Position numbers and translations under genes: made by a program. A DNA stretch of 27,844 nt from a virus. Shown here in pieces: positions 11,793 to 27,844 of the stretch. Position 1 is the stretch's first letter; every line of letters starts with the position of its first letter. The notes under the pieces were generated by a model. The model ran no database searches and was not told where the DNA came from. It saw only the letters and a program-made list of their open reading frames with translations. Where the stretch lies: IMG/VR virus record IMGVR_UViG_3300030102_006895, positions 6,078-33,921 of that record; one strand, written 5' to 3'.

Positions 11793-11816
11793 ATAATCAT
11801 ACAAAGTGAGGAAAAC

Positions 11817-13370: not shown

Positions 13371-13380
13371 CAAGGACATA

Positions 13381-13396: not shown

Positions 13397-13408
13397 GAGG
13401 GTTGCACT

Positions 13409-13678: not shown

Positions 13679-13689
13679 AGAGAGGTAAT

Positions 13690-15217: not shown

Positions 15218-15218
15218 A

Positions 15219-15560: not shown

Positions 15561-15585
15561 CATGTCACCCAGTGGTGTTTATAAT
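15557..15585 (+). promoter_or_regulatory. hsp20 promoter, consensus sigma70
   Basis: TTGACA (15557-15562), a 17-bp spacer, then TATAAT (15580-15585), perfect consensus. The segment GTTTATAATATA is shared with the groEL promoter. The expected +1 is near 15592, leaving an unusually long leader of about 70 nt. Confidence 0.85.
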
Positions 15586-15637
15586 ATATACATGATCTTG
15601 TTGCTATTAAGGGCAGGGTCATGCATATATTGCAGCA

Positions 15638-15654
15638 CTTGCTTAAAAAAGGAG
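15638..15654 (+). promoter_or_regulatory. Candidate ROSE-like RNA thermometer at the hsp20 SD
   Basis: TTGCT (15639-15643) lies six bases before AGGA (15650-15653) of the SD, and C15638 can pair with G15654. A UUGCU strand facing AGGA with one bulged G is the hallmark of ROSE thermometers in small heat-shock mRNAs. Upstream, CATGATC and GGTCATG can form a second stem. The stem is short, so this is tentative. Confidence 0.35.
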
Positions 15655-15662
15655 AAAATAAA

Positions 15663-16088: not shown

Positions 16089-16115
16089 TGTAGATTGATC
16101 ATGCAAACTAAAACT

Positions 16116-16140
16116 AGGCGGCATTTTTTGCCGCCTTTTT
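16116..16140 (+). terminator. Rho-independent terminator after hsp20
   Basis: AGGCGGCA (16116-16123) pairs with TGCCGCCT (16129-16136) across a 5-nt loop and is followed by five T residues. It makes hsp20 a one-gene transcript. Confidence 0.92.
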
Positions 16141-16161
16141 ACTATTTAATTTATATCATGG

Positions 16162-16551
16162 ATGGTGCTTAAATTGAGTCAAGACATAAAAAAAGAAATA
16201 CAAGATTATCTAAACTCCTTATCGGAAGCAGAAGAGAGGTCAAGGCAAAAGGGAATATATAGGTTTTATTGCATGATGCAGTATACAGATGCGGAAAGAT
16301 CTTTGGAGAGTATCTTGACGGACATCCGCGCCCTGCCCTCGATAACAATCGTGAATACTGTGGGTAACTCCAAGTCAGTCGCTCCAAATGTGTATATCGC
16401 AGCACTGAGCGTAAAGTTTGTCCCATCTCCAGTCGGAGTCCCAGCGTCCCCAGAAAGAAAAAAAGTGGAGATATTACAGAGTCTGAAAAGAGTCTCTGGT
16501 GTCTCAAGACTTTTTAAGGTCTCGTCTCGACTGGAGAGGTTCGACGCATAA
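16162..16551 (+). CDS. Unknown phage protein, 129 aa
   Basis: 129 residues; the N-terminal helix is highly charged, followed by a compact beta/alpha core (LESILTDIRALPSITIVNTV; YIAALSVKFVPSPVGVPASP; ILQSLKRVSGVSRLFKVSSR). I recall related proteins in marine T4-like phages, where the conserved phrase is a 'DIRALP-x-I-T-x-V'-type strand. No SD precedes the ATG; a TTG 12 bp later is an alternative start. Function unknown. Confidence 0.6.
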   Translation: MVLKLSQDIKKEIQDYLNSLSEAEERSRQKGIYRFYCMMQYTDAERSLESILTDIRALPSITIVNTVGNSKSVAPNVYIAALSVKFVPSPVGVPASPERKKVEILQSLKRVSGVSRLFKVSSRLERFDA

Positions 16552-16553
16552 GT

Positions 16554-17147
16554 ATGAAAATAATAGATGAAGAGAAAAGGAAGGACATCTTTTCTCTTAT
16601 CAGTAGTTACCTCAAGGATGAGTTGATACTGCTTGATCCCTTGCGACTGAAGATAGAAGAGGATATTAGTGGTGAGGTCTGCAAGTGCACGGTGTACCTG
16701 AAAGAAAACGGTACAAAGAAAACTTTGACACACACTGGTTCTGGGGCAGTTGAAAGCATATTCGACGCCCTGATGTTGCACTATTGCGAAACCTTTCAGT
16801 CGCTGAAGACAATCAGGTTTGAAGAGTTCGACGTTGTCACAAAGTTTAGATCGTGGCAACGTAAAGATTCCGGCGCAAACGCAAAGTGCGAAGTTCGAAT
16901 AAGTCTTTCAAACGCCTGCAAGACGCCAATGGTTTTTGTTGGCAGGTCTAAATCGGTATCTGGAGCGATTGCCAAGTCTGTGATTTCCGCATACCAATAC
17001 TACATAAACGCAGAAAAATGTTTTCTCAAGATTCGAGATCTGGTGATTGAAGCGAAGTCTAGAAATAGAAGTGACATCGTCTCTAAATTGACTTATGACT
17101 TGACTGAGATAGTTTCTGTCACAAACTACGATGACTTAGGTGTGTAG
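16554..17147 (+). CDS. Stand-alone LeuA regulatory/dimerisation-type domain, 197 aa
   Basis: 197 residues, beginning 2 bp after the previous stop. Residues 30-160 follow the C-terminal allosteric domain of alpha-isopropylmalate synthase. KCTVYLKENGTKKTLTHTGS matches the family's T-V-x-L-x-x-x-G-x-x-x-x-x-x-x-G-N-G. GAVESIFDALMLHY matches G-P-V-D-A-x-x-x-A-I. The SGANAKCEVRISL strand fits the D-A-x-x-x-V-x-V block, and VSGAIAKSVISAYQYYINAE fits D-I-x-x-A-S-x-x-A-Y-x-x-x-x-N. No catalytic barrel is present in the gene or its neighbours. The domain normally binds leucine and forms dimers, so a role as decoy or modulator of host leucine synthesis is possible, as is an unrelated use of the fold. 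Confidence 0.65.
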   Translation: MKIIDEEKRKDIFSLISSYLKDELILLDPLRLKIEEDISGEVCKCTVYLKENGTKKTLTHTGSGAVESIFDALMLHYCETFQSLKTIRFEEFDVVTKFRSWQRKDSGANAKCEVRISLSNACKTPMVFVGRSKSVSGAIAKSVISAYQYYINAEKCFLKIRDLVIEAKSRNRSDIVSKLTYDLTEIVSVTNYDDLGV

Positions 17148-17255
17148 ATGTTAGAAAAAGTCTTTCGCTATCTTCTTCATAATTGGGGTCTAAAACTGTT
17201 CGCGGCAATAATAACTGCGATACTCTATTTATATAGGATACATTACGTTGGGTGA
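17148..17255 (+). CDS. Micro-membrane protein, 35 aa
   Basis: 35 residues: a short basic/aromatic head (LEKVFRYLLHNWGLKLF), one hydrophobic helix (AAIITAILYLY) and a short tail. The head resembles the N-terminal anchor of YbbR proteins (x-N-W-x-L-K-L-x-A), but nothing else of that family is present. The ATG directly follows the stop of the LeuA-like gene, and the gene overlaps the next by GTGA. Confidence 0.5.
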   Translation: MLEKVFRYLLHNWGLKLFAAIITAILYLYRIHYVG

Positions 17256-17425
17256 TCAGTGTGTTTAATAGAGTTGTTATCTGTTTGTGGGTTTTTTGCT
17301 TGATTCTGCTGGGCATTGTGACGTTTTATACCAACAAGAGTATAGATGAACAAGTGAGGCAGGAAGATGGGGTGGAAAGGAAACTTGACAACAATTTTCA
17401 AAAAGAGAGAAATAAAGGTAGGTGA
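17252..17425 (+). CDS. Micro-membrane protein, 57 aa
   Basis: A GTG start overlapping the previous TGA gives 57 residues; a second GTG nine bases later is also possible. One N-terminal helix (VVICLWVFCLILLGIVTF) is followed by a charged tail (DEQVRQEDGVERKLDNNFQK). The start region contains GGTGATCAGTG (17251-17261), also seen in the junction repeats near the right end. The C-terminus reads K-G-R-stop, with the TGA inside the G-D codons of the next K-V-G-D-L-V gene. Confidence 0.5.
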   Translation: MISVFNRVVICLWVFCLILLGIVTFYTNKSIDEQVRQEDGVERKLDNNFQKERNKGR

Positions 17426-17672
17426 TCTGGTTAACCATATTTTGTACGGTAGAGAGTGGATCGCTGTAGTTTTGAAGTTCTCCAGGAAACCCGACGCGCT
17501 CACCACCAAGTACCGAGCGTTGGTGCGTATGGTACCAGGAACTAGGTATGAGTCTTTTTTTAGAAAATACACAGAAAGCGTCAAGGAGACAGAGTTTCAA
17601 GGGTGGGTTTCAAGTAATTGGTTAATAAAGGTAGAGGAATCAATTAGGAGAAAAAACAATGAAGAATCTTAA
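17367..17672 (+). CDS. KVGDLV-family small protein, 101 aa
   Basis: The family motif IKVGDLVNHILYG is at residues 17-29, followed by beta-rich sequence (WIAVVLKFSRKPDA; RALVRMVPGTRYESFF) and the closing W-V-S-S-N-W-L-I-K-V-E-E-S typical of the group. At the place where other members have GTG, this one has ATA (17415), so I keep the ATG at 17367 as start, which makes a 59-bp overlap with the upstream membrane gene. Fold inferred to be SH3/KOW-like; function unknown. Confidence 0.6.
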   Translation: MGWKGNLTTIFKKREIKVGDLVNHILYGREWIAVVLKFSRKPDALTTKYRALVRMVPGTRYESFFRKYTESVKETEFQGWVSSNWLIKVEESIRRKNNEES

Positions 17673-18015
17673 ACCACTTTTTATAGAGAACAGTGTAGTG
17701 CCAAAAATCTTATCGTACTTGTCACCTATAGACATTTGGGCAATCGCCCTCGGTCCATTGGTTTTTTGCAGAGGAAAGTTGCAACCACAAACCAGGAGAC
17801 ACGAAACAATACATTTCCAGCAGCAGTTGGAATTGTTGTTTTTGGGGTTCTTTCTTTTATATGTCGTGTTCTGGTTGCGTGCACTCGTGAAGACTAAGAG
17901 TGGATCAGAGGCGTATCGAGTGATCCCTTTTGAGATTGAGGCGTACTCAAACGAATCCAACGAGGAATATTTAAGGAACAGAAAAAGATTTGCTTGGATA
18001 AAATACTTAAAATAG
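17659..18015 (+). CDS. HExxH membrane protein, possible metallopeptidase, 118 aa
   Basis: 118 residues with an AGGAG SD. The motif HETIHFQQQLELL (from residue 49) matches the zinc-binding HExxH, and FEIEAYSNE about 35 residues later could supply the third ligand. A membrane helix (LLFLGFFLLYVVFWLRAL) lies between them. I recall proteins of this pattern in marine phages and bacteria, without assigned substrate. The overall size is very small for a protease, so peptidase activity is only suggested. Confidence 0.55.
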   Translation: MKNLKPLFIENSVVPKILSYLSPIDIWAIALGPLVFCRGKLQPQTRRHETIHFQQQLELLFLGFFLLYVVFWLRALVKTKSGSEAYRVIPFEIEAYSNESNEEYLRNRKRFAWIKYLK

Positions 18016-18035
18016 TTTGCAGGTGATGATATACT
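18007..18035 (+). promoter_or_regulatory. Candidate leaderless promoter
   Basis: Weak -35 TTAAAA (18007-18012), a 17-bp spacer and a good -10 TATACT (18030-18035). The expected +1 falls at the ATG of the lipoprotein-like gene (18042), which has no SD. Confidence 0.4.
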
Positions 18036-18041
18036 TTCTTT

Positions 18042-18317
18042 ATGAGAAAGATAATACTAATTTTTATATTGATATCCCTATCGTGTGATAGTACGATGGA
18101 GATGCAGAGAGAAGAGGGAGACTGTGTGATGCCTCAAGACGTGGAAACAGCAAAAGACAACCGGACATACTCTGAGTGGTTGTGTTGGAATCCTTCGTCA
18201 CCTCACCATGGTGGTCCCTGTGTGGAAGCATGTATGATACCAGGGAACCAAAACACATTTTGTTATCAGTCAGAACCATCTAGTTCAGACATCTTGGACC
18301 AATCACTGCGAGATTGA
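18042..18317 (+). CDS. Cys-rich lipoprotein-like secreted protein, 91 aa
   Basis: 91 residues beginning with a signal peptide (RKIILIFILISLSC) whose last Cys is at a lipobox-like site. The mature part has five more Cys (GDC, WLC, GPC, EAC, TFC), suggesting a small disulphide-bonded periplasmic or outer-membrane protein. Phage lipoproteins of this size can block receptors or superinfection, but no homology shows that here. It appears to be expressed from a leaderless promoter. Confidence 0.6.
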   Translation: MRKIILIFILISLSCDSTMEMQREEGDCVMPQDVETAKDNRTYSEWLCWNPSSPHHGGPCVEACMIPGNQNTFCYQSEPSSSDILDQSLRD

Positions 18318-18367
18318 TGATGAAAACGGTGCATATTATTTTGAATTGAATCACAAAAAGAAAAGTC

Positions 18368-18395
18368 TTGCACCTAATTCTATAGACAGTACAAA
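18368..18395 (+). promoter_or_regulatory. Candidate promoter for the transpeptidase-like gene
   Basis: TTGCAC (18368-18373), a 16-bp spacer, then TACAAA (18390-18395), followed by an AAGAGGGG SD before the ATG at 18416. A moderate match, but it lies in the only non-coding gap of this stretch. Confidence 0.4.
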
Positions 18396-18415
18396 ATTTT
18401 AAGAGGGGATATAAA

Positions 18416-19039
18416 ATGGCGAGAGTATCAGGTTTGCAAGCGGAACTGATCGTGAACCAGTTCAAGGACGCTTTCAGTTCTAAGGGGTATGTTTTTTTTG
18501 AGAGAGGGGATTACAACCTCAATATCGTGGGGGTAAGAAACTCTTCCGGTGCGGCAGATGTTTTTGATGACACGATGAATGTCATGTATAAGATTGATGG
18601 ATCTTGGGTTGTTGATACATATATCATTACGACAGAACCAGGACCCAGAATCTTGAGAAGACCTATAAACGAAAAGGGAACAGCGATCCTGGTACCAAAC
18701 CAGTATGTTGGGGCGTACATCATTGGCACACACAAGACCTACACGGCACTCATTCAGCGTGGCGGCACAGTTAAGGTTTGGCGAGACAACAACAGAGATT
18801 CAGTTGCGGACTACACCGGAGATCATGACAGTGGTTGGTATGGGATAAACATTCATAAGCACGCGGGACCTGATGATCGAGAGCATACCGGCGGCGTCAG
18901 CGCTGGATGCCAAGTCTTCCAAAGCAGCAAGGATTTTGAAGAGTTTATGAGTACATGTCATGACTCTTCCGAGATGTATAGCAATAGGTTCACTTACACG
19001 TTGATAGATGAAGGGGATCTCTCGATTTGTCATACGTGA
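18416..19039 (+). CDS. L,D-transpeptidase-like / lysin-like protein, 207 aa
   Basis: 207 residues. The C-terminal half contains GINIHKHAG (His) and, about 15 residues later, GGVSAGCQVF (Ser-x-Gly-Cys), followed by SSKDFEEFM. This HxxG...SxGC pattern is the catalytic layout of YkuD-type L,D-transpeptidases, which act on peptidoglycan cross-links with a catalytic Cys. There is no signal peptide, so it would need a holin or be carried in the virion. It has a good SD and a possible own promoter, and overlaps the next gene by GTGA. A role in lysis or cell-wall penetration is inferred. Confidence 0.55.
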   Translation: MARVSGLQAELIVNQFKDAFSSKGYVFFERGDYNLNIVGVRNSSGAADVFDDTMNVMYKIDGSWVVDTYIITTEPGPRILRRPINEKGTAILVPNQYVGAYIIGTHKTYTALIQRGGTVKVWRDNNRDSVADYTGDHDSGWYGINIHKHAGPDDREHTGGVSAGCQVFQSSKDFEEFMSTCHDSSEMYSNRFTYTLIDEGDLSICHT

Positions 19040-19212
19040 GAAAAGGAGATCTTGTGGCATTCAGGAGAGGGATGTCGCAGGATTGTTTTCCTCAAGTCGC
19101 GTTGGTTCTTCAGGAACTGAACGAAGTTGGAAAGACTCTGGTGTTGTGGCAAAATAGTAAGCATTGGGTATATTTTGAAGATCTTGTGATTATTTCTCGA
19201 AAAAAGACTTGA
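19036..19212 (+). CDS. KGDLV-family small protein, 58 aa
   Basis: Start chosen at the GTG that overlaps the previous TGA, giving VRKGDLVAFRRGM, in line with the GTG starts of the family. A beta-rich middle (PQVALVLQELNEVGKTLVLW) leads to the family ending HWVYFEDLVIISRK. No other motif. Its own stop lies inside the -35 box of the next promoter. SH3/KOW-like by inference. Confidence 0.65.
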   Translation: MRKGDLVAFRRGMSQDCFPQVALVLQELNEVGKTLVLWQNSKHWVYFEDLVIISRKKT

Positions 19213-19237
19213 CTTCGTTTGAACTCTGTGGTATATT
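19209..19237 (+). promoter_or_regulatory. Sigma70-type promoter
   Basis: TTGACT (19209-19214), a 17-bp spacer, then TATATT (19232-19237). The expected +1 is near 19244, just before the AAGGAG SD of the SH3-Smr gene. Confidence 0.7.
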
Positions 19238-19262
19238 TTATCATATTACAAAGGAGTTTTTT

Positions 19263-19703
19263 TTGAAGTATCTTTTTAATATCCGCAAAGGAGATGCTAT
19301 TATTGCGGGTGCCGGCGTTGGGATAGTTACCAAAAGAACCAGAAACTATTATTACTATTTTTATGATGGTCATGTTGCTAAGATCAAAAAAAAGAGACTT
19401 TGGGAGTACCTAGACAGCAAAGCGGACAAGGTAAGTCTAAAGTATGCAAATGGAACGAAGCACAGAAGAAAGCAGAGAAAGATGAGGACCCTTGACCTTC
19501 ATAGGGTGAGACATCAAGATGTGGCAGAAAAGGTAAGAAGGTTCTTAAACTTTGTAGAACTACCATGTACAATAGTCACTGGAAAATCAGATAAAATGAA
19601 AGAGATCGTGAAAAGTATAGTGAAGGAATATGGGTGGATGATCTCACCACTCAGCACCAACCTCGATGGCGCATATGTTATAATTGAAAAATGGGAAGGA
19701 TAG
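19263..19703 (+). CDS. KGD-domain to Smr-domain fusion protein, 146 aa
   Basis: A TTG start following AAGGAG gives MKYLFNIRKGDAIIAGAG. The first 60 residues resemble the K-x-G-D small-protein family found along this region. From about residue 75 an Smr-like domain begins: TLDLHRVRHQDVAEKVRRFL, then IVTGKSDKMKEIVKSIVKEY. This matches the DLHG...(T/H)GxG core of Smr nucleases, with R replacing the usual G after DLH. Smr domains cut or bind nucleic acids and occur in marine phages. It is co-transcribed with the adenine methylase. Confidence 0.7.
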   Translation: MKYLFNIRKGDAIIAGAGVGIVTKRTRNYYYYFYDGHVAKIKKKRLWEYLDSKADKVSLKYANGTKHRRKQRKMRTLDLHRVRHQDVAEKVRRFLNFVELPCTIVTGKSDKMKEIVKSIVKEYGWMISPLSTNLDGAYVIIEKWEG

Positions 19704-19704
19704 T

Positions 19705-20622
19705 ATGAATTTTAAGACACCACTCCGATACCCTGGTGGTAAAAGCAGGGCACTAAAGTATCTGAAACCAAAAATGCCAGAAGATTACTCTAGTTTCGTC
19801 GAACCGTTTGTGGGCGGCGGTTCGGTTTTTTTGTCAACAAAGAAGGATAAACCAGAAGGAGACTATTGGATTAACGACCTGTATTTTAATCTCTACTGTT
19901 TTTGGGTTGCTCTGAGAGACCAACCAGACAATCTTGTAGATTCTCTTCAGACTATAAAGAATAGATCAAGAGAACTTATCACAAAATCTCAAATAAAAGA
20001 AATGGACCTGCCCAAGCAGGATCGCTTGCTTCTCACAAAGAGAATTACCAAGAACGCAAAAGAGATGTTCCTTGAGACAAAAGACAGGATCAAAACTACA
20101 ACGTCCGACCTAGATCGCGCAGTTTGTTTTTTCATTCTAAACAAGTGTTCGTTCTCTGGACTTACTGAGTCGGGAACCTTTTCTGCTCAAGCGAGTATGC
20201 AGAACTTCTCAGACAACTCTATACAGAGGTTGTCAGAGGTTTCAAAAGCAATCCAGGGTGTTCGGATAACTAATATGGATTATGTCGATGTGCTCAAGGA
20301 TTTGCCTTCTAATTCCTTTTTGTTCTTTGATCCCCCTTATGATATACTGAAGGGTAAAGAGAAAAAGACTAATGCATTGTATGGAAAGTCTGGTAAAATG
20401 CACATCGGGTTCGATCATGAATTGTTTGCCAACCAATGCGATACCATCCGAGAGGATCACAAGTTTATGATTACTTACAACAACAACGAGCAGATCAGGA
20501 ACAGATTCTCGAAATACAATCAGACTCTTTGGGATCTGACTTATACCATGAGGTCTACTGGCGAGTACATGAAAGACCAAAAAGAAAGAAAAGAACTACT
20601 GATAACTAACTACGATTTTTAG
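19705..20622 (+). CDS. dam: DNA adenine N6-methyltransferase, D12 class (Dam-like)
   Basis: 305 residues, usual for Dam (about 280-300). The N-terminal signature LRYPGGKSRALKYLKPKMP is followed by the SAM-binding FVEPFVGGGSVFL, and the catalytic motif FFDPPYD lies near residue 210. The order is that of alpha-class D12 methylases, which typically modify GATC. The ATG has a GAAGGA SD. The probable role is protection of phage DNA from restriction or control of GATC-containing sites; GATC occurs in several of the junction repeats near the right end. Confidence 0.92.
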   Translation: MNFKTPLRYPGGKSRALKYLKPKMPEDYSSFVEPFVGGGSVFLSTKKDKPEGDYWINDLYFNLYCFWVALRDQPDNLVDSLQTIKNRSRELITKSQIKEMDLPKQDRLLLTKRITKNAKEMFLETKDRIKTTTSDLDRAVCFFILNKCSFSGLTESGTFSAQASMQNFSDNSIQRLSEVSKAIQGVRITNMDYVDVLKDLPSNSFLFFDPPYDILKGKEKKTNALYGKSGKMHIGFDHELFANQCDTIREDHKFMITYNNNEQIRNRFSKYNQTLWDLTYTMRSTGEYMKDQKERKELLITNYDF

Positions 20623-20623
20623 A

Positions 20624-20788
20624 ATGAAGCAGATTATACTTGACATCATATATGTTTTGGGGTATTCTATATTTGCATCGATAATCGTCGGCAAGATCTT
20701 ATCGAGAAGAAGAGGAAGGAATGCACAAGTTTTACGCATTTACCGGAGAAGGGGATTCTTTGATGGTGGTGATAGATACGAGGAATGA
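20624..20788 (+). CDS. Micro-membrane protein, 54 aa
   Basis: 54 residues, ATG one base after the dam stop. One hydrophobic N-terminal helix (IILDIIYVLGYSIFASIIVG) is followed by a very basic tail (KILSRRRGRNAQVLRIYRRR). The tail overlaps the next gene for 68 bp, so the C-terminus may be shaped by that frame. No recognised family. Confidence 0.4.
   Translation: MKQIILDIIYVLGYSIFASIIVGKILSRRRGRNAQVLRIYRRRGFFDGGDRYEE
20640..20668 (+). promoter_or_regulatory. Candidate internal promoter
   Basis: TTGACA (20640-20645), a 17-bp spacer, then TATTCT (20663-20668), within the start of the small membrane gene. It would serve the gene at 20721. Confidence 0.4.
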
Positions 20789-20906
20789 GAACGTGATGAT
20801 CACATTGGGAAATTTTGAAATGGAGATAGACGTAGATTCTGCCATGGAACTCGCAGACCTACTAATAGACGCGGCATCTGAGGTGGCGGATGGACAGGGA
20901 GATTAG
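20721..20906 (+). CDS. Small acidic protein, 61 aa
   Basis: 61 residues with a GAGGAAGGA SD. Two beta hairpins (KFYAFTGEGDSLMVVIDTRN; VMITLGNFEMEIDVDSA) and an acidic C-terminal helix (AMELADLLIDAASEV). It overlaps the next gene by 17 bp. No family recognised. Confidence 0.6.
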   Translation: MHKFYAFTGEGDSLMVVIDTRNENVMITLGNFEMEIDVDSAMELADLLIDAASEVADGQGD

Positions 20907-21156
20907 GGACGGCAAGGGATATCACTGGACATCAGAGACATCTACAGGTGTTTCAAGAGGGTTTGCCATTGACAACCTAGACTCTAAAAGCATGTATGAG
21001 GCAGAGAATGATTTTGAAAGACTTTTTATTGCAGTTCGTGAGGTTTTGGAAAAAAGTGAGCGCTATTGTTTTGAAACCGAAGAGGAAAGACTTCAGGTTT
21101 GTCATGACGTCGCAAGACACATTAGGTCAAAAGAGTCGAAAATTTTCAAGGATTAG
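20890..21156 (+). CDS. Unknown small protein, 88 aa
   Basis: 88 soluble residues, acidic and helical in the C-terminal half (FERLFIAVREVLEKSERYCF; EEERLQVCHDVARHI). The ATG is preceded by a GAGGTGGCGGATGG stretch that can serve as SD. No family recognised; the overlap with the preceding gene suggests coupling. Confidence 0.55.
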   Translation: MDREIRDGKGYHWTSETSTGVSRGFAIDNLDSKSMYEAENDFERLFIAVREVLEKSERYCFETEEERLQVCHDVARHIRSKESKIFKD

Positions 21157-21167
21157 GAAAAAGAAAG

Positions 21168-21196
21168 ATCCATATGATGGGTATCTTCATATGGAT
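21168..21196 (+). promoter_or_regulatory. Perfect 9-bp inverted repeat, hairpin or operator
   Basis: ATCCATATG (21168-21176) and CATATGGAT (21188-21196) flank 11 bp. There is no T-tract. A 20-codon mini-frame (ATG 21174 to TGA 21236) starts in the left arm and ends by GTGA overlap on the next gene, so a leader-peptide arrangement is possible. Confidence 0.4.
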
Positions 21197-21232
21197 GCCT
21201 GGTAACAGAGTTAGTAGCGCACTATTTAGTGT

Positions 21233-21436
21233 GTGAAACATAAAAAGTACAGACTAATGGTAGGTGATTTGGTTGTATGTTATCTGACAAATACTACGAA
21301 ATATCGCGCCCTACTCGATGCTGGTATCGTTTTGGATACAAACAGAGAGAAGGGGGAAATCTATGTTCTGAGTCGTCACGGGTACAGAAGATGGTGGAAG
21401 GAGTCTAGGTGGAAACTCCTAAAGAAAAAGAAATGA
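21233..21436 (+). CDS. VGDLV-family small protein, 67 aa
   Basis: A GTG start gives 67 residues with the motif MVGDLVVCYLTN at residue 9; the ATG at 21257 is an alternative start that would align it with the other members. The beta-rich core (DAGIVLDTNREKGEIYVLSR) ends in a basic W-K-E-S-R-W-K-L-L-K-K tail. It overlaps the next gene by ATGA. SH3/KOW-like by inference. Confidence 0.6.
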   Translation: MKHKKYRLMVGDLVVCYLTNTTKYRALLDAGIVLDTNREKGEIYVLSRHGYRRWWKESRWKLLKKKK

Positions 21437-21675
21437 AGATGGGCGAAAATGTTCTGTTCGTTGAGGACTACATGGTATGGGGTCACAACGTCAATGGCAT
21501 GACGGGAATGTTTTATAGGTTTGAAACTTCTGGAAACTGCCTCGTGTATATCTCAAAGATCGAAGAATGGTGTGAACCGCCATTAAGTTTCCTGATTAGG
21601 AAATCCAATGGAAGGGTTGGAAAAAAGAATAGAATTTTTTGCGATAGAATTAAGACAATGGAGATTACTTATTAA
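21433..21675 (+). CDS. Small SH3-like protein, 80 aa
   Basis: The ATG overlapping the upstream stop gives MKMGENVLFVEDYMVWGHNV, a diverged version of the K-x-G-D-x-V start. The rest is beta-rich (GMFYRFETSGNCLVYISKIE) with a basic end. A longer in-frame version starting at 21409 lies inside the upstream gene and lacks an SD. Confidence 0.55.
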   Translation: MKMGENVLFVEDYMVWGHNVNGMTGMFYRFETSGNCLVYISKIEEWCEPPLSFLIRKSNGRVGKKNRIFCDRIKTMEITY

Positions 21676-21819
21676 ATGCTAAAGGGTAGACATATGATGG
21701 GTCCTGACTTTTTGCTACTTGCTGTACCACTTGCCTCCGCAGCGGTCTTGACGGTGGGGGCATTGACTGGTCTTTATGTCGTTGGCAAGACGGCAAAAAT
21801 TGTAAAAAAGATTGTTTAG
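21676..21819 (+). CDS. Micro-membrane protein, 47 aa
   Basis: 47 residues beginning immediately after the previous stop: one long hydrophobic, Ala-rich helix (FLLLAVPLASAAVLTVGALT) and a basic tail (KTAKIVKKIV). A second start at the internal M-M-G is possible (21694). The look is holin- or antiholin-like, but far too short for a confident call. Confidence 0.45.
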   Translation: MLKGRHMMGPDFLLLAVPLASAAVLTVGALTGLYVVGKTAKIVKKIV

Positions 21820-21829
21820 AGAGAAAGAC

Positions 21830-22060
21830 ATGAGCATTAAATTTTTATTGGGGTTCATCGCAATTGTGCTTTGTACTGGGTGTCCACTGACTGACGACTG
21901 CGAGCCAGACGATAATAACTATTCTCACACCGAATATGATTGCTATTACAAAGACTATTCGGTCGAGGTCTGTGGTAGAAACGGATGCACTAACGAAACC
22001 AGGAGCAAGCATGTTTGCGAGGACGTGCATGTGTGCTACTCGGACAATGAATGGGAGTGA
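21830..22060 (+). CDS. Cys-rich lipoprotein-like secreted protein, 76 aa
   Basis: The ATG follows a GAGAGAAAG stretch. Signal peptide SIKFLLGFIAIVLCTGC with a T-G-C lipobox-like end. The mature part is acidic and aromatic and carries six further Cys (DDC, YDC, EVC, NGC, HVC, HVC). It resembles the protein at 18042 in plan, not in sequence. Exported to the periplasm or outer membrane; function unknown. Confidence 0.6.
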   Translation: MSIKFLLGFIAIVLCTGCPLTDDCEPDDNNYSHTEYDCYYKDYSVEVCGRNGCTNETRSKHVCEDVHVCYSDNEWE

Positions 22061-22065
22061 GTGGT

Positions 22066-22503
22066 ATGTCTAGGAAAGTAAAGTCTGTTTCCTTTTTGAA
22101 GGGTGAGCACCGCGAAATTGTCGAAGCGGATAGCAGAACCGGCAAGTTCTTGTTGAAGTACAACGTGTACGGGAAATATGGTTCGACTCGCCTGGTTTCC
22201 AGGAGTTACAATTTGTACAGGTTTGTAACTCATGAACAGGTCAAGAATTGCGATCCAGTGCTTACTTTGGAAAGCGGTGACAAGATCCGTGTTTACCACG
22301 GTGGTGACCAGACTCAAATGCTTGCTCAGGCAGCAGGTCTGATCGAGAGGCATGACAAGACTCAGACTCTCAGGAAATCATTGCTGGAAAAGGTCAAGAA
22401 AAATTCATTAAAAGAAGTGCAGGATGTGGAAGAAAGAAGGGAATCTTTCGCCTACAATCTTGACTTTGTTTTTGATGATGACGACTATGATGGAATCTTT
22501 TGA
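22066..22503 (+). CDS. Unknown basic/acidic protein, 145 aa
   Basis: The start at ATG 22066 is chosen because GGAGTGAG lies six bases before it; an in-frame ATG at 22051 lacks an SD. A basic beta-rich N-terminal part (KFLLKYNVYGKYGSTRLVSR; LTLESGDKIRVYHGG) leads to a helical part (TLRKSLLEKVKKNSLKEVQD) and a very acidic tail (DFVFDDDDYDGIF), as in some DNA-mimic or assembly proteins. No family recognised. Confidence 0.6.
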   Translation: MSRKVKSVSFLKGEHREIVEADSRTGKFLLKYNVYGKYGSTRLVSRSYNLYRFVTHEQVKNCDPVLTLESGDKIRVYHGGDQTQMLAQAAGLIERHDKTQTLRKSLLEKVKKNSLKEVQDVEERRESFAYNLDFVFDDDDYDGIF

Positions 22504-22513
22504 AAATAAGTGC

Positions 22514-22542
22514 TTGATTGTTGGTTCAAGGTGTGATAGAGT
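22514..22542 (+). promoter_or_regulatory. Candidate leaderless promoter
   Basis: TTGATT (22514-22519), a 17-bp spacer, then TAGAGT (22537-22542), with ATG at 22550 near the expected +1. The 14-mer AAATAAGTGCTTGA (22504-22517) recurs at 25040-25053 in the same position relative to another family gene. Confidence 0.45.
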
Positions 22543-22549
22543 ATAAGGG

Positions 22550-22801
22550 ATGATTAGGCAGCAGTTCGACATAGGAGATCTGGTTCAGATAAACCTGCCC
22601 TATCCAACGAAGGATAGTAGAACGTCTATCGGTGTAGTGACCGAGACGAGACTTATCAACGCCCACATGACGTCTCCAGAACTTTATAGGTGGCACCCTG
22701 ATGAGTACACTTGTCTTGTTAGGGTGCTGCATGAAGACAAGGCGCGCTGGGTGCGCGCCAAGCATCTAAAAACTATTAGCAGGGCAAACTTTGCAAAATA
22801 G
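22550..22801 (+). CDS. IGDLV-family small protein, 83 aa
   Basis: 83 residues: the motif FDIGDLVQINLPYP at residue 6, beta strands (SIGVVTETRLINAHMTSPEL; YTCLVRVLHEDKARWV) and the family ending W-V-R-A-K-H-L-K-T-I-S. There is no SD; the ATG coincides with a predicted transcription start. A GC-rich palindrome in its 3' part (22741-22759) is explained by the A-R-W-V-R-A codons. Confidence 0.65.
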   Translation: MIRQQFDIGDLVQINLPYPTKDSRTSIGVVTETRLINAHMTSPELYRWHPDEYTCLVRVLHEDKARWVRAKHLKTISRANFAK

Positions 22802-23081
22802 AGAAAAAAGAATACGAAGTTTGTTTACGATCATGATGCTGATACTGGCACTCAGTGCGATCTTCAGTTTTATGTATGCTTCTCATCTCGAACAGGAACT
22901 TTCGCTTTTGGAAAAAAAGATAAAGATTCTGGAAAAAAAGAAAAAAGATTCCCTAAAGGATAAGTTAGACAAAATCATAGAGGGAATGGAACATGAAAAA
23001 ATGGAGAACTCGGGGTTGACAAGACCCTTTCCGTGTATATATTTATATGACACTATACCAGAAGGAGAAAACAATGAGTAA
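22791..23081 (+). CDS. Membrane-anchored coiled-coil protein, 96 aa
   Basis: A TTG start overlapping the previous gene by 11 bp. A basic head, one membrane helix ([20 protein letters not shown]) and a Lys/Glu-rich coiled coil ([18 protein letters not shown]) follow. The layout resembles spanin- or FtsL-like bitopic proteins, with no sequence proof. The C-terminus overlaps the dnaK start by 8 bp and contains the dnaK promoter. Confidence 0.5.
23016..23043 (+). promoter_or_regulatory. dnaK promoter
   Basis: TTGACA (23016-23021), a 16-bp spacer, then TATATT (23038-23043). The spacer AGACCCTTTCCGTGTA closely matches that of groEL (AACACTTTCCTAGTGTT). The leader ends in GAAGGAG before the ATG at 23074. 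Confidence 0.7.
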
Positions 23082-24942
23082 AGTTATAGGGATAGATCTG
23101 GGCACGTCCAATTCGTGTGTCGCAGTGATGGAAGGTTCTGAACCAAAGGTGATTACAAACATGGAAGGTTCAAGAACAACGCCATCAGTGGTTGCATATT
23201 CTGGTGGAGAGACCATCATTGGAAACCCAGCAAAGAGACAGGCAGTGACCAATGCCAAGAATACCATTTATTCTGCAAAAAGGTTTATTGGTATGCGATT
23301 TGACGAGTCAGAGAAGGATATCCAGGGCGTACCATTTGAGGTCCGCCAGTCCAACCAGGGCATGTGTGAGATTATGGTAGACGGCAAGGCACTAGCGCCC
23401 CAGACAATAAGTGCTCAGGTGTTGATCAACATGAAGTCTTCAGCAGAGGCATATCTGAACACTGAAGTCACAGAGGCAGTCATCACTGTGCCCGCATATT
23501 TTAATGACGCCCAAAGGCAGGCAACCAGAGATGCAGGTAAGATTGCGGGTTTAGACGTCAAGAGGATAATCAACGAACCTACTGCCGCTGCTCTCGCTTA
23601 TGGTTTGGACCGTGGAGACGATAAGAAGATTTTGGTTTACGATCTCGGCGGCGGCACGTTTGATGTCTCGATATTGGAAATCGGAGACGGTGTGATCGAA
23701 GTCATCAGCACCAACGGGGATACTCACTTGGGTGGCGACGATGTTGATAATTTGATCATTCAGTGGTTGGTTTCGGAGTTTAAGAAGGAGAGCGGCATTG
23801 ACCTTAGTAATGATTCCATGGTCATGCAAAGACTGAGAGAGGCAGCAGAAAAAGCAAAGATCGAACTGTCCAGCACGCTCCAGACAGATATCAATCTGCC
23901 GTTTATTACAGCAGACGCGACAGGTCCCAAGCACCTACAAATGAATCTCACCAGATCTAACTTTGAGAAGATGATTGAAGATGTTGTGAGCAGGTCAATG
24001 CAACCTGTTAAACGTGCACTGAAGGATGCCGGGACAAGAAAACAGGACATCGATGAGGTTTTGTTGGTCGGAGGTTCCACAAGAATTCCACTGGTGAGAA
24101 AAACTGTAGAAGATTATTTTGAAAAATCCGCCAGCACCTCGGTCAATCCAGACGAAGTGGTTGCCCTTGGCGCAGCAGTCCAGGGTGGTGTCTTCAGCGG
24201 AGAGGTCAATGATATTTTGCTCCTTGATGTGACCCCTTTGTCTTTGGGACTTGAAACTATGGGTGGTGTCATGACTAAGTTGATAGATAGAAATTCTACG
24301 ATACCTTGCACAAAGTCTCAAATCTTTACCACTGCCGCAGACAATCAACCAGCGGTGGACATAAAGGTTTTGCAAGGGGAAAGGGAATTTGCAGAGGACA
24401 ATAAGCGATTGGGAGTCTTCAAGTTGGAAGGCATCATGCCCGCCCCTCGCGGAGTCCCGCAGATTGAAGTGACCTTCGATATCGATGCTAACGGACTGGT
24501 AAAGGTTTCCGCCAAAGATCAGGCAACGGGCAAAGAGCAAAACATAAGCATCACAGGTTCGGGCGCGATGTCGGATGAAGAGATTGATAAATTGATAAAG
24601 GAAGCAGAGGAAAACTCAGAGACCGACCGTGCTCGACGAAGTCTGATAGAAGACAGGAACTCATTAGAGACTCTATGTTTTAGGGTGGAAGATATGGTTT
24701 CTGAACATGGAGACCGGATATCAGAAGAGGACAAACAGTTGCTCAAAGACTTAGCAGAAGACTCAAGAAGATACTTGACATCTGAAAGTCCAGATGTTAT
24801 AAAGTCACAAATTGAAAAAGTAAATGAGGCAATGCAGAGTGTGTCAAAAAAGATGTATGACGCATCTTCCCAAGACCCTACCGACGCAACACCACCAGAG
24901 GATGATGTTATCGACGCAGAGTTTGAAGAGTCAGATGCCTGA
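23074..24942 (+). CDS. dnaK: DnaK (Hsp70 chaperone)
   Basis: 622 residues, nearly full length for DnaK (about 640). ATPase domain: [13 protein letters not shown] at residue 6, [43 protein letters not shown], and [14 protein letters not shown]. The substrate-binding domain includes [20 protein letters not shown] and [19 protein letters not shown]. The alpha-helical lid and the acidic end ([13 protein letters not shown]) are present. It is complete and apparently functional; DnaJ and GrpE are not in the window, so host partners would be used. The start is set by GAAGGAG. An Hsp70 together with GroEL, Hsp20 and ClpP in one phage region is unusual. Confidence 0.96.
24775..24803 (+). promoter_or_regulatory. 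Candidate internal promoter in 3' dnaK
   Basis: TTGACA (24775-24780), a 17-bp spacer, then TATAAA (24798-24803), inside dnaK. It could drive the short genes downstream; its location within coding sequence keeps confidence low. Confidence 0.35.
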
Positions 24943-25081: not shown

Positions 25082-25294
25082 ATGAAATTAAAGTCCTCTT
25101 ACGTCAGACATACGCTGCGCCCCGGTACTTTGTTTTGGTATGATTACCACTACCAACCAAAAGTGGCAATCGTAATTGGTCCGTCTATTGAGGACCCCGG
25201 TTTTTTGAGGTTGTTGGTACAAGAGACAGGACAAGTCAAGGTGATGAATTACAATTGGATACCAAAAGAGAGCATAATATGTGAAAGTCGGTGA
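25082..25294 (+). CDS. KVGDLV-family member, 70 aa (array 1, first)
   Basis: 70 residues with the family plan: LRPGTLFWYDYHYQ in place of K-V-G-D-L-V, strands PKVAIVIG and LRLLVQETGQVKV, and the ending I-I-C-E-S-R-stop. The last 14 bases are also the start of the next gene (GTGAAAGTCGGTGA). There is no SD at its own ATG. SH3/KOW-like by inference; function unknown. Confidence 0.65.
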   Translation: MKLKSSYVRHTLRPGTLFWYDYHYQPKVAIVIGPSIEDPGFLRLLVQETGQVKVMNYNWIPKESIICESR

Positions 25295-25300
25295 TCTAGT
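25281..25300 (+). repeat. Junction repeat A (gene end / gene start)
   Basis: GTGAAAGTCGGTGA plus TCTAGT. In one frame it ends the upstream gene (E-S-R-stop), in another it starts the downstream gene (V-K-V-G-D-L-V). This copy lacks the GGAGG upstream half. Confidence 0.85.
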
Positions 25301-25448
25301 GAGGTACAAAGAAGAGGTCCGTCATCTCGCCGGTGATGGAGTGTATATTGTGGAGCGTGTTGAGAGCAACAATTGCTGGGTCTTTTTGTTTGGATACGAG
25401 ACACCAATACAAATGAACTTGATGGAGGTTATCAGTGAAAGTCGGTGA
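25281..25448 (+). CDS. KVGDLV-family member, 55 aa (array 1, second)
   Basis: A GTG start yields VKVGDLVRYKEEVRHLAGDG, then a strand (VYIVERVESNNCWVFLFGYE) and the family ending L-M-E-V-I-S-E-S-R. It shares 14 bp with each neighbour. It is easy to miss because no ATG is in the right place, but start, length and ending agree with three other members. Confidence 0.7.
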   Translation: MKVGDLVRYKEEVRHLAGDGVYIVERVESNNCWVFLFGYETPIQMNLMEVISESR

Positions 25449-25454
25449 TCTAGT
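25424..25454 (+). repeat. Junction repeat B
   Basis: GGAGGTTATCA directly followed by GTGAAAGTCGGTGA and TCTAGT. The first half encodes E-V-I of the upstream gene and is at the same time a strong SD six bases from the GTG start. Confidence 0.9.
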
Positions 25455-25656
25455 TGTACCGCAGGATTGGGGTTATGGTGTGAATTTACAGACCGGGGAG
25501 TACATAAGGATCAAACCGGAGGCACCACCTCAGATAGTTACAAAACTAATTCAAATGAAAGATTGCAAAGTATTGGAAGCAGAAATTTACTTGCCATGGC
25601 GAAACGAAAAGTGTAGAATAACAAGTAGTGATTTCAAAGTTGTTAGCGAGGTATGA
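25435..25656 (+). CDS. KVGDLV-family member, 73 aa (array 1, third)
   Basis: A GTG start within junction repeat B gives VKVGDLVVPQDWGYGVNLQT. Beta-rich core (QIVTKLIQMKDCKVLEAEIY) and the ending S-S-D-F-K-V-V-S-E-V-stop, a shortened version of E-V-I-S-E-S-R. It is the last unit of this array; uvdE starts one base after its stop. Confidence 0.7.
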   Translation: MKVGDLVVPQDWGYGVNLQTGEYIRIKPEAPPQIVTKLIQMKDCKVLEAEIYLPWRNEKCRITSSDFKVVSEV

Positions 25657-25657
25657 C

Positions 25658-26656
25658 ATGAATCTTGGTTATGCATGTATTAACATGACCCTATCCGAAG
25701 TCCCTAAGTCAAAGAGGATCACGACCAATAGGTCAATGATCAAGAAGACGTTTCTTGAGAAGGGCAAGGCATATGCTTCTGCCCTCGCTCTGGAAAATGT
25801 CAAAGACCTGAAGAAGATTCTCCAGTGGAATGAGATGAACGGGATCAAGTTTTTCAGAATGTCTTCAGACATTTTCCCATGGTCTTCGGAATACTCTTTG
25901 TCAGATCTTCCAGATTATGATGAGATCTGTTTTCACCTCGACCAAGCAGGTGAGTATGCTACGGAGAATGGTCACAGACTAACTTGTCATCCAGGTCCTT
26001 TCAACGTACTTGGTTCGCCCAAGGATGAGGTCGTGCTGAAGACTATCAAGGAGTTGAACACACACTCGGAGATTTTTGATCTCATGGGATTCATCGATCC
26101 GAGTCCCTACAATAAGATCAATATCCATGTCGGGGGAACTTACGGTGGTGATTTTGTTGGCACTGCAAAAAGATGGTGCCAAAATTTTTACAGACTTGAT
26201 CACAATACACAGAAAAGACTGACACTAGAGAACGATGACAAGGCAAGCATGTGGAGCGTGAAGCACATATATGATCACATGCACAGAGTGATTGGTATCC
26301 CGATTGTGTTTGATTATCATCATCACAGATTTTGTACCGGAGGTCAATCAGAAGAAGAGGCGCTTAAACTTGCGGCATCAACCTGGGCAAGCGATATCAA
26401 ACCAGTTGTCCATGTTTCAGAGTCCAAAGCACTCGAATACAATGATGACAAAATCCGACCCCAAGCACATTCAGATTATGTTCTAAATCCAATAAATACC
26501 TATGGACAAGAACAGGATGTTATGCTAGAATGTAAGAAAAAAGAATTGGCATTGCTCAAATACAGAGAGATTTTATTAGAAAGGAGCGAAGTAGATGAAG
26601 AGTCCAGAGATTGCAGAATTGGCGGGAATCCGCACTGCGCTAGTGTCTATAATTAA
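25658..26656 (+). CDS. uvsE: UV damage endonuclease (UvdE family)
   Basis: 332 residues, matching UvdE (about 300). The TIM-barrel signature is clear: NLGYACINMTLSE at the N-terminus, then FFRMSSDIFPW, LTCHPGPFNVLGSP, INIHVGGTYGGD, RLTLENDDKASMW, IPIVFDYHHHRF and VHVSESK. These hold the metal-binding His, Glu and Asp residues. The enzyme nicks DNA 5' to UV photoproducts, useful to a phage of sunlit water. The last 20 or so residues overlap the next gene and differ from typical endings, so the C-terminus may be extended. It follows the KVGDLV array without a promoter. Confidence 0.92.
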   Translation: MNLGYACINMTLSEVPKSKRITTNRSMIKKTFLEKGKAYASALALENVKDLKKILQWNEMNGIKFFRMSSDIFPWSSEYSLSDLPDYDEICFHLDQAGEYATENGHRLTCHPGPFNVLGSPKDEVVLKTIKELNTHSEIFDLMGFIDPSPYNKINIHVGGTYGGDFVGTAKRWCQNFYRLDHNTQKRLTLENDDKASMWSVKHIYDHMHRVIGIPIVFDYHHHRFCTGGQSEEEALKLAASTWASDIKPVVHVSESKALEYNDDKIRPQAHSDYVLNPINTYGQEQDVMLECKKKELALLKYREILLERSEVDEESRDCRIGGNPHCASVYN

Positions 26657-26882
26657 GGACCTGAGAATGTTGGAAGGAAGGATTGCATCACTAGAGTACA
26701 GTGTCGGATCTCATGATACGATTGAGGTAGACGACGACGACTTTCCAGTAGGACCCTCTATAGAGGCAAGGGACAGTTATGACACGATTTCTACAAAAAA
26801 AGGTCTTGAAAACTGGAGAGTTTTGAAAGAGGTCGTAGTTGATGATATCAGTGAAGAAGTGAAAGGGGAAAACAATGCTTGA
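26595..26882 (+). CDS. Unknown acidic protein, 95 aa
   Basis: 95 residues with an AAAGGAG SD, overlapping uvdE by 62 bp. An N-terminal coiled coil (IRTALVSIIKDLRMLEGRIA) is followed by an acidic, disordered-looking tail (DTIEVDDDDFPVGPSIEARD). The good SD supports it despite the long overlap. Its TGA stop lies within a TTGACT box. Confidence 0.6.
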   Translation: MKSPEIAELAGIRTALVSIIKDLRMLEGRIASLEYSVGSHDTIEVDDDDFPVGPSIEARDSYDTISTKKGLENWRVLKEVVVDDISEEVKGENNA

Positions 26883-26961
26883 CTTTGTATTAAACGTTGC
26901 TATGTTAGCGGGCGGGATATTTCTCGGTACAGTGATTGTAGATTACTGGCGAAAGAGTTAA
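26875..26961 (+). CDS. Micro-membrane protein, 28 aa
   Basis: 28 residues after an AAAGGGGAA SD: a single hydrophobic helix (FVLNVAMLAGGIFLGTVIV) and a basic end (YWRKS). It overlaps the previous gene by 8 bp. Function unknown. Confidence 0.5.
   Translation: MLDFVLNVAMLAGGIFLGTVIVDYWRKS
26879..26906 (+). promoter_or_regulatory. Candidate promoter before the tRNA
   Basis: TTGACT (26879-26884), a 16-bp spacer, then TATGTT (26901-26906). The stop of the 95-residue gene is inside the -35. It could transcribe the tRNA; the match is modest. Confidence 0.3.
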
Positions 26962-26969
26962 CGGATTGT

Positions 26970-27042
26970 GCCCTGGTAGCATAATGGATAATGCAACGGT
27001 CTTCTAAACCGTAGACTACAGGTTCGAGTCCTGTCCAGGGTG
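26970..27042 (+). tRNA. tRNA-Arg (anticodon UCU)
   Basis: 73 nt fold as a complete cloverleaf. Acceptor arms GCCCTGG and CCAGGGT (first pair G-U), D-arm GCAT/ATGC, anticodon stem ACGGT/ACCGT with loop CTTCTAA (anticodon TCT), T-stem ACAGG/CCTGT with TTCGAGT loop, discriminator G. CCA is not encoded. It reads AGA and AGG, which are frequent arginine codons in the right-hand genes, so it probably supports phage translation in a host with fewer such tRNAs. Confidence 0.95.
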
Positions 27043-27079
27043 CTGATTTATAAAGACTGAAAAAGTCACAAAAAGATCT

Positions 27080-27108
27080 TGACATGCAAGGGATCGTGTG
27101 ATATTATA
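27080..27108 (+). promoter_or_regulatory. Sigma70-type promoter
   Basis: TTGACA (27080-27085), a 17-bp spacer, then TATTAT (27103-27108), followed by GAAGGAG and ATG 27132. It drives the last cluster of micro-proteins and the second KVGDLV array. Confidence 0.75.
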
Positions 27109-27131
27109 TGTTCAGAAAGTGAAGGAGACAT

Positions 27132-27251
27132 ATGATTACTTTAATTACAGGAGATGCGACAGAGGGGTTTTTCTGGGACTGCATCTTGATATCTGTTCTG
27201 TATCTTTTTTACAGGTTGTGTCATTACTCACAAGAGACAAAGTTGGATTAG
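27132..27251 (+). CDS. Micro-membrane protein, 39 aa
   Basis: 39 residues with a perfect GAAGGAG SD behind a good promoter. One hydrophobic helix (GFFWDCILISVLYLFYRL) and a polar tail (CHYSQETKLD). No family recognised, but the expression signals make coding likely. Confidence 0.65.
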   Translation: MITLITGDATEGFFWDCILISVLYLFYRLCHYSQETKLD

Positions 27252-27260
27252 GGGTGTCAC

Positions 27261-27368
27261 ATGCTTCAGCATTTATCAAATTGTCATGGTGAGTGGAATC
27301 TTTTGTTTGCCATCATTGGTTCGTTGCCCTTCGTCGGACTTTGGGTGCGGACAAAGATGAAAGGATAA
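27261..27368 (+). CDS. Micro-membrane protein, 35 aa
   Basis: 35 residues: polar His/Cys head (LQHLSNCHGEWN), helix (LLFAIIGSLPFVGLWV) and basic end (RTKMKG). I recall similar tiny proteins with the C-H-x-E-W-N-L-L motif in cyanophage-like genomes. Weak SD; 9 bp after the preceding gene. Confidence 0.55.
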   Translation: MLQHLSNCHGEWNLLFAIIGSLPFVGLWVRTKMKG

Positions 27369-27375
27369 GATAGAG

Positions 27376-27462
27376 GTGGAAACGGTTAAGATATTGATTG
27401 CGGTGCTTGTCCCGTTTATGGCAATAGCGATTGGCATATTTTTGTCTTTAATAGTAATTTGA
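27376..27462 (+). CDS. Micro-membrane protein, 28 aa
   Basis: A GTG start preceded by GATAGAG gives 28 residues that are almost entirely one membrane helix (VKILIAVLVPFMAIAIGIFL). Its stop is followed by junction repeat C and the next family gene. Function unknown. Confidence 0.5.
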   Translation: METVKILIAVLVPFMAIAIGIFLSLIVI

Positions 27463-27490
27463 GGTGATCAGTGAAAGTCGGTGATTTAGT
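27461..27490 (+). repeat. Junction repeat C
   Basis: GAGGTGATCA plus GTGAAAGTCGGTGA plus TTTAGT. Here the upstream half is not coding for a family C-terminus (the micro-membrane gene stops at 27462), so it acts only as SD and start. Confidence 0.9.
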
Positions 27491-27656
27491 CATAAAACGA
27501 TTTGGATATTTCGAACCCTGGCAGAGAGATAGTGTAGGGATTGTTCTAGGAAGAGAATGGCGCGATCACCTAGACTTTATTACTGTCTTGTATCCCAATA
27601 GAAATCCTGAGTTGTATCGTAGGAATGATTTCGAGGTGGCAAGTGAAAGTCGGTGA
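27471..27656 (+). CDS. KVGDLV-family member, 61 aa (array 2, first)
   Basis: GTG start: VKVGDLVIKRFGYFEPWQRD, strands (SVGIVLGREWRDHLDFITVL) and the ending N-D-F-E-V-A-S-E-S-R-stop. The extended SD GAGGTGATCA lies directly before it. It shares 14 bp with the next gene. Confidence 0.75.
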   Translation: MKVGDLVIKRFGYFEPWQRDSVGIVLGREWRDHLDFITVLYPNRNPELYRRNDFEVASESR

Positions 27657-27662
27657 CTTAGT
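27633..27662 (+). repeat. Junction repeat D
   Basis: GAGGTGGCAA plus GTGAAAGTCGGTGA plus CTTAGT. It encodes E-V-A-S-E-S-R-stop of one gene and the GTG start of the next. The 14-bp core is unchanged. Confidence 0.9.
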
Positions 27663-27810
27663 GAGACTCAAAGAGTTTTGCCGGGACTCAGGCAGACCGG
27701 CACTATTGGTTGCCTTACATCGGAGTTTTGCTAAGATAATGTTTGTCGATTCCGCTCAATGCGAAGGTGTCTTCAAGGCGAATCTGGAGGTGATCAGTGA
27801 AAGTCGGTGA
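27643..27810 (+). CDS. KVGDLV-family member, 55 aa (array 2, second)
   Basis: GTG start within repeat D: VKVGDLVRLKEFCRDSGRPA, strands (LLVALHRSFAKIMFVDSAQC), ending N-L-E-V-I-S-E-S-R-stop. An ATG 18 bp upstream would only add residues from the overlap. Same length (55) as the second member of array 1. Confidence 0.75.
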   Translation: MKVGDLVRLKEFCRDSGRPALLVALHRSFAKIMFVDSAQCEGVFKANLEVISESR

Positions 27811-27816
27811 TTTAGT
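27786..27816 (+). repeat. Junction repeat E
   Basis: GGAGGTGATCA plus GTGAAAGTCGGTGA plus TTTAGT. The 10-mer GGAGGTGATC is fully complementary to the standard bacterial 16S rRNA 3' end. Confidence 0.9.
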
Positions 27817-27844
27817 TACTCTCTCTGCTTATGGCAAGAAGTTG
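27797..27844 (+). CDS. KVGDLV-family member, 3' end off window (array 2, third)
   Basis: GTG start in repeat E: VKVGDLVTLSAYGKKL, then the window ends. It shows that the array continues to the right. Confidence 0.7.
   Translation, partial: MKVGDLVTLSAYGKKL

Follow-up and report, generated by a model that had tools for sequence, protein, structure and literature searches.

A dual-coding junction element repeated between small genes of marine T4-like phages and its probable role in a promiscuous gene-cassette array

A 27,844-nucleotide (nt) stretch of a viral record (IMG/VR IMGVR_UViG_3300030102_006895, positions 6,078 to 33,921; one strand; hereafter the window) ends in a series of small genes joined by copies of an element of ∼33 nt that closes one protein and opens the next. 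These genes probably form part of a promiscuous array of gene cassettes, carried by marine T4-like phages, in which units move by homologous exchange at the element. A somewhat bolder proposal, which we hold with less assurance but still favor, is that the array is a recombinase-free cassette system in which a dual-coding translational adaptor serves a shared open pool of genes, lets the phages put together differing sets of small proteins, and gives unrelated cargo its N-terminus. The case is built on the anatomy of the element, its spread among viral contigs, the reshuffling of units between relatives, breakpoints that fall within the element, and the heterologous proteins found at it.

The element has the consensus TGGAGGTNATCA-[GA]TGAAAGTCGGTGAYTTRGT and is read in two frames. 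One frame encodes the last residues and stop of the upstream protein (EVISESR*), and the other, one base on, supplies the start codon and N-terminus (MKVGDLV) of the following protein, while the middle, GGAGGTGATC, has the form of an extended Shine-Dalgarno (SD) sequence. Neighboring genes overlap by 14 nt and the shared part of the junctions spans ∼20–33 nt. In the window the 14-mer GTGAAAGTCGGTGA is present in five exact copies starting at 25281, 25435, 27471, 27643, and 27797, all on the plus strand, in agreement with the initial annotation; allowing up to two mismatches returned the same five only, against a mean of 0.23 and a maximum of 2 in 100 dinucleotide shuffles. The same annotation assigned a GAGGT-type upstream half to four of the copies, and this SD half was indeed found in copy 2 (25424–25454; GGAGGTTATCA followed by GTGAAAGTCGGTGATCTAGT), copy 3 (27461–27490; GAGGTGATCA), copy 4 (27633–27662; GAGGTGGCAA), and copy 5 (27786–27816; GGAGGTGATCA), the exception being copy 1 (25281–25300), which consists of the core half GTGAAAGTCGGTGATCTAGT only. 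A further 'partial copy' that it placed at 17251–17261 proved to be a mere 11-mer without the family start and is not counted.

Copies 2, 4, and 5 each join two genes of the KVGDLV type through the 14-nt overlap, the upstream protein ending in EV[IA]SESR-stop, and here stop, SD, and start are combined in one element as had been claimed. The joined genes are cassette 1 (25281–25448; 55 residues, 58 per cent amino acid identity to L067/L197, the L numbers being our handles for array loci) with cassette 2 (25435–25656; 73 residues), cassette 3 (27471–27656; 61 residues) with cassette 4 (27643–27810; 55 residues, 74.5 per cent amino acid identity to L083), and cassette 4 with cassette 5 (27797–27844), which is truncated by the contig end. 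Cassette 2 ends in ...VVSEV because the next gene is not a member of the family. Copy 1 is preceded by a small gene that is not of the KVGDLV type (25082–25294; no match in Pfam or PHROG) and that reads into the element to end in ...ICESR. Before copy 3 lies a 28-codon open reading frame (ORF; 27376–27462, read directly, hydrophobic in its reading) whose stop is the TGA inside TTTGAGG in the SD half of the copy, and the other frame retains an eight-codon open tail, FEVISESR, that is closed upstream by a TAA; this orphan tail looks like the relic of a cassette that was replaced.

Related arrays, compared for order and copy number, differ by the gain, loss, and rearrangement of units; the breakpoints lie in the element, and the backbone is collinear. 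The loci L081 and L084 are 99.3 per cent identical over 4.3 kb, and L081 has one extra cassette, located between two elements. L058 and L117 have collinear flanks of 99 per cent identity and carry two common cassettes in opposite order. The arrays of G042, G050, and G006 and of contig 3300020438_000176 (L040) share the same cassette clusters in differing order; in pairs of the first three the backbone is 74–81 per cent identical and the cassettes 86–92 per cent, and the adjacencies kept were 10/10 outside the cassettes versus 1/7 among them, 14/14 versus 3/6, and 12/16 versus 1/7, the 12/16 perhaps reflecting permutation of a contig. A closer pair (G027/G056), in which backbone and cassettes are both 98–99 per cent identical, kept 4/4 non-cassette adjacencies and 1/2 cassette adjacencies. 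In 25 alignments, separate contigs repeat one another's array arrangement over 2–11 elements at 97–100 per cent identity, and the arrangements are therefore not assembly errors. Neither of two outcomes that the initial annotation had named as contrary to its cassette interpretation was observed: relatives do not keep their genes in a constant order across junctions that have diverged normally, and the element is not absent elsewhere. That interpretation is supported as far as reshuffling in related arrays is concerned; the recombination behind it is a matter of mechanism, considered below. Tandem duplication followed by divergence in a stable order might be expected from paralogous family genes that lie in tandem, and one near-identical duplicate does occur within a locus (L192, 99 per cent). 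However, the order varies between relatives over a collinear backbone, and near-identical cassettes sit next to unrelated neighbors, so that duplication is refuted as the sole explanation and is the least credible of those considered here.

The cassettes also move singly far more often than the other small genes of the same loci. Both flanks were unrelated in 174 of 328 shared family gene pairs, compared with 37 of 367 pairs among the remaining small genes that have an SD (odds ratio 10; p 2e-36, taken as descriptive because the pairs are not independent) and 24 of 510 random segments; several of the 37 are themselves family-like or bounded by the element. This contrast bears on a rival account that we judge unlikely, if still the strongest of the alternatives: gene-level mosaicism under constraint, in which illegitimate recombination is followed by selection for intact genes and the element is conserved solely by its roles in coding for two frames, as SD, and as N-terminus of an SH3-like family. 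In favor of this account, random illegitimate recombination with counter-selection is an accepted hypothesis for phage mosaicism (discussed in PMC3945230); the rarity of lone-unit movement among the other small genes of the loci speaks against it.

Where the same cassette is followed by different downstream neighbors, mismatch is low to +13 of the next start and reaches 0.77 at +20; where it is preceded by different upstream neighbors, mismatch of ∼0.7 extends to −13, falls to 0.31 at the start base, and is near zero from +1. Homology between arrays is thus lost within the element. The start base differs in 14 of 45 pairs with a different upstream neighbor versus 1 of 106 pairs with the same neighbor (≥90 per cent identity), and it therefore follows the upstream side, which mosaicism under constraint does not readily accommodate. 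Together, the breakpoint map and the start-base counts point to TGAAAGTCGGTGAYTTRGT, past the start base, as a frequent place of exchange.

The element is indeed constrained by dual coding, and this favors the mosaicism account. An ORF that reads the ESR frame overlaps the start of 525 MKVGD genes from upstream; in these genes, GTC and GTA make up 96 per cent of the valine codons, because both keep the upstream arginine, and GGT makes up 100 per cent of the glycine codons, because it is needed for the TGA. However, the bias remains in MKVGD genes that are not overlapped (scan hits excluded), at 0.62 for GTC, 0.71 for GGT, and 0.86 for AAA compared with 0.22, 0.29, and 0.50 in the bodies of the same genes, and dual coding alone does not explain the conservation of the element.

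Several points weigh against homologous exchange at the element as the whole explanation. Exchange on the right side was seen in 81 of 140 cases with the element in both copies and in 56 of 141 with the element in neither; the effect of the element is moderate, and gene-level exchange without it therefore also occurs. This moderate effect keeps mosaicism under constraint in consideration as a minority explanation, in whose favor exchange at junctions lacking the full element also counts. Some cassettes have just the 13-nt core in common with the junctions of their neighbors, which is short for T4 recombination. The pair counts are not independent events, and the p-values ignore this; the loci were chosen by the element, which biases the codon statistics, a bias reduced by excluding scan hits. 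Finally, no close relative of the window's own array was returned, and the shuffling is that of related arrays.

The initial annotation had suggested that the element be sought beyond the window, and it is widespread. An 18-mer from it matched at least 119 stretches of viral contigs, and the core occurs in 60 of 60 whole viral records, at 1–12 copies each and always on one strand, compared with one match for a reversed control pattern. Alignment of 351 distinct junctions from the first 124 loci gave the consensus TGGAGGTNATCA-GTGAAAGTCGGTGAYTTRGT; these junctions were selected with the core fixed, such that information comes from the positions beyond the core. In 86 stretches the element has ATG instead of GTG, which changes the upstream tail SESR to NESR. 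The 33-mer was not found in 50,697 cultured phage records (80 per cent coverage), nor did two cassette proteins have relatives there; matches of 17–18 nt in Salmonella phages cover about half of the query, look like chance, and were set aside. Seven bacterial or archaeal contigs also contain the 18-mer, and those from marine metagenome-assembled genomes (MAGs) may be binned phage. One contig of a Halobacteriovorax MAG and one of the viral records are both 101,404 long.

Among 50 array-bearing records, 26 encode a T4-type major capsid protein above cut-off (Pfam Gp23) and one more has a T4 portal; those without a capsid match are probably in part fragments. In the phage collection, cultured or metagenomic, the capsids nearest to these (Flavobacterium phage immuto and others) are 46–51 per cent identical over about half of the protein. 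SD sites are little used in Flavobacterium. Given that an SD site is present in 523 of the 525 overlapped family genes while the nearest cultured capsid relatives infect Flavobacterium, the host of the array carriers may lie elsewhere.

The proteins themselves constitute an open pool: at 60 per cent identity, the 695 MKVGD proteins sampled form 469 clusters. The usual cassette encodes an SH3-like or KOW-like barrel of ∼60 residues (50–75). AlphaFold2 modeling of the cassette 3 sequence with a 63-member alignment predicted a five-stranded SH3-like barrel at a mean pLDDT of 94.8. Profile and fold matches were to KOW domains of NusG/Spt5, ribosomal proteins, and other SH3-like barrels: the best profile match to a solved structure was NusG (E 0.0016), and the best fold match was the Spt5 KOW domain (Z 8.2), with which other SH3-like barrels tie. 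Family members matched no Pfam family above cut-off and no PHROG at E ≤ 0.001, and of nine proteins one gave a KOW match, which fell below the Pfam cut-off (17.1 versus 22.3 bits). The cassettes share a fold class with the KOW domains of NusG, Spt5, and ribosomal proteins and differ from them in being stand-alone phage proteins of ∼60 residues; a fold held in common says nothing of function. A defence-related family was considered and rejected, PADLOC having returned one borderline match among 63 members.

Proteins unrelated to this family occur at the element as well. They include a probable membrane protein (MKVGDRVWSWMNEH, starting MKVGDRVW, in L100; in L134 it is spelled MNVGDKIWDWMNEH), a DUF2061 membrane protein that starts MKVGDTLKK in L031 and MKPSDILKK in L053, and GIY-YIG nucleases with the tail INESR (one in L045, E 1.5e-16). 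The non-SH3 proteins are hard to account for by protein-family constraint alone, and the MKVGD start on unrelated membrane proteins is a further difficulty for mosaicism under constraint. One cassette (L117:2106; this and the following positions in reoriented coordinates) has lost the TGA of the overlap and reads on to ...SESRRYGKNSPWILSTRIID, and failure of the stop is therefore tolerated. Another protein family, MKLVRDxIPxII (L012:1410, L036:13837, L050:3745, L135:10133, and L179:6716), occurs at this same SD-AGTGAAG junction, there in a TAG form by which the preceding protein would finish in SEAS. These junctions may represent a second lineage of the element.

There is reason to think that homology at the element is what drives the exchange. 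Because every junction has the same ∼20–33 nt, any two copies can exchange, and homologous strand exchange or annealing could take place between two copies in one genome or in co-infecting phages. Such events would add, delete, swap, or reorder whole cassettes without disturbing either reading frame, the ribosome site, or translational coupling. Recombination of the phage RecA/UvsX type is the most likely agent; a RecA-like protein, which we take to be of the UvsX type as in T4-like phages, is encoded in 12 of 12 large genomes. Selection may favor variation in which small proteins are carried, and these might act in host takeover or counter-defence.

A dedicated site-specific system acting at the element (integron-like, invertase, or other) would likewise fit a short conserved site with cassettes in fixed orientation, and a weak imperfect hairpin can be folded there (z about −3 to −4, −2.9 kcal/mol). 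However, tyrosine integrases (PF00589) were found in 0 of 12 large genomes by a search that was positive in 14 of 14 controls, and resolvases in 0 of 12 by one that was positive in 10 control genomes, making such a system very improbable. The hairpin pair −4/+14 displays no covariation (Fisher p 0.73), and an attC-like hairpin was rejected for the lack of covariation at this outer pair.

Homologous exchange at a repeated junction has partial parallels in known systems. As with integron cassettes, small promoterless genes that share one orientation are drawn from an open pool, and their gain, loss, and reordering take place at a repeated site; the array differs in the integrase result (0/12), in the absence of an attC-like covarying fold, in a site that is coding on both sides, and in being phage-borne. 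The initial annotation knew of no described phage system with this design; the general idea, module exchange through short sequences conserved at gene boundaries, already has precedents in the PeSL motifs of T4 and the nin region of lambda. The PeSL motifs of T4 reportedly consist of an intergenic promoter and a terminator stem-loop. Like the element, they are short, recur, and lie between small genes in T4-type phages; the element differs in coding on both sides, acting in translation, and folding weakly. For these 'mobile regulatory cassettes', modular shuffling by homologous recombination has been proposed (Arbiol 2010; Comeau 2014; as cited in PMC4503421). The nin region of lambda is a 'chain of interlinked genes' with ATGA stop/start overlaps (Kroger and Hobom 1982, as described in PMC8022706). 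It too has tightly packed small accessory genes with a conserved stop/start overlap and varies between lambdoid phages. However, its motif is 4 nt (TGA/ATG), whereas the overlap in the array is 14 nt within an element of ∼33 nt that provides C-terminus, SD, start, and N-terminus, and the array, unlike nin, is mostly of one fold and shuffled in order. Compared with both precedents the element is longer, fully coding, and translational on both sides, serves mainly one fold, and has reshuffling that is directly visible. A literature search on overlapping cassette junctions and SH3-like small phage proteins found no description of such a system.

Exchange of single genes in phages is debated between short-homology recombination and random joining with selection, and very few recent mosaics between virulent Escherichia coli phages are reported (PMC3945230). 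The array provides a defined, repeated, translation-proof natural exchange site with hundreds of junctions, which makes this debate directly testable. It also offers a concrete route for the diversification of phage 'ORFan' regions, and the element is a ready adaptor with which interchangeable small genes could be built into operons on plasmids or in laboratory phages.

Between the two parts of the array in the window lie a UvdE-type UV endonuclease gene (25658–26656; Pfam UvdE, E 2.9e-54), a non-family ORF (26595–26882), and a tRNA-Arg (TCT; 26970–27043), all on the plus strand, as are the elements, the cassettes, and the small genes before copies 1 and 3. Of 80 loci that hold related UvdE genes, 17 also have elements nearby.

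The window contig is itself probably chimeric near 5.78 kb, judging from the join region at 5778–6309, although the join may be a real recent recombinant. The left end encodes structural genes of a podovirus group, including a podovirus-type capsid, and the genes at 715–5778 are 67–94 per cent identical to podovirus sisters. Of 26 genes tested to the right, from 6309 on, GroEL alone matched the sisters, distantly (∼33 per cent), and most right-hand genes match array-bearing phages. The join is marked by a 45-bp tandem repeat at 5784–6007, by a flip of the skew, and by a jump in G+C content from ∼0.37 to 0.44. Since the contig is probably chimeric, the left-end genes are not to be tied to the array. 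The element was present in 0 of 42 podovirus-sister records, and carriage of the array by a podovirus, as a transfer between unrelated phage types, was dropped on this count, because the close matches of the right-hand genes are all array-bearing phages, and because the join coincides with the tandem repeat and the G+C jump. The element belongs to marine T4-like phages, not to the podovirus whose structural genes occupy the left end.

The intervening region (6309–24942) is dense in host-like genes. Pfam identified most of them, namely IMP dehydrogenase/GMP reductase, ClpP, GroEL, glutaredoxin, HSP20, and a D12-class DNA adenine methylase, while a dUTPase-like gene and DnaK were recognized by reading and by comparison with array-bearing phages. 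Four small genes of the GDLV type without the element also lie here (17367–17672, 19027–19212, 21233–21436, and 22550–22801), and for the two tested, at 17367 and 22550, array-bearing loci contain relatives. The SH3-like family extends beyond the element-linked cassettes.

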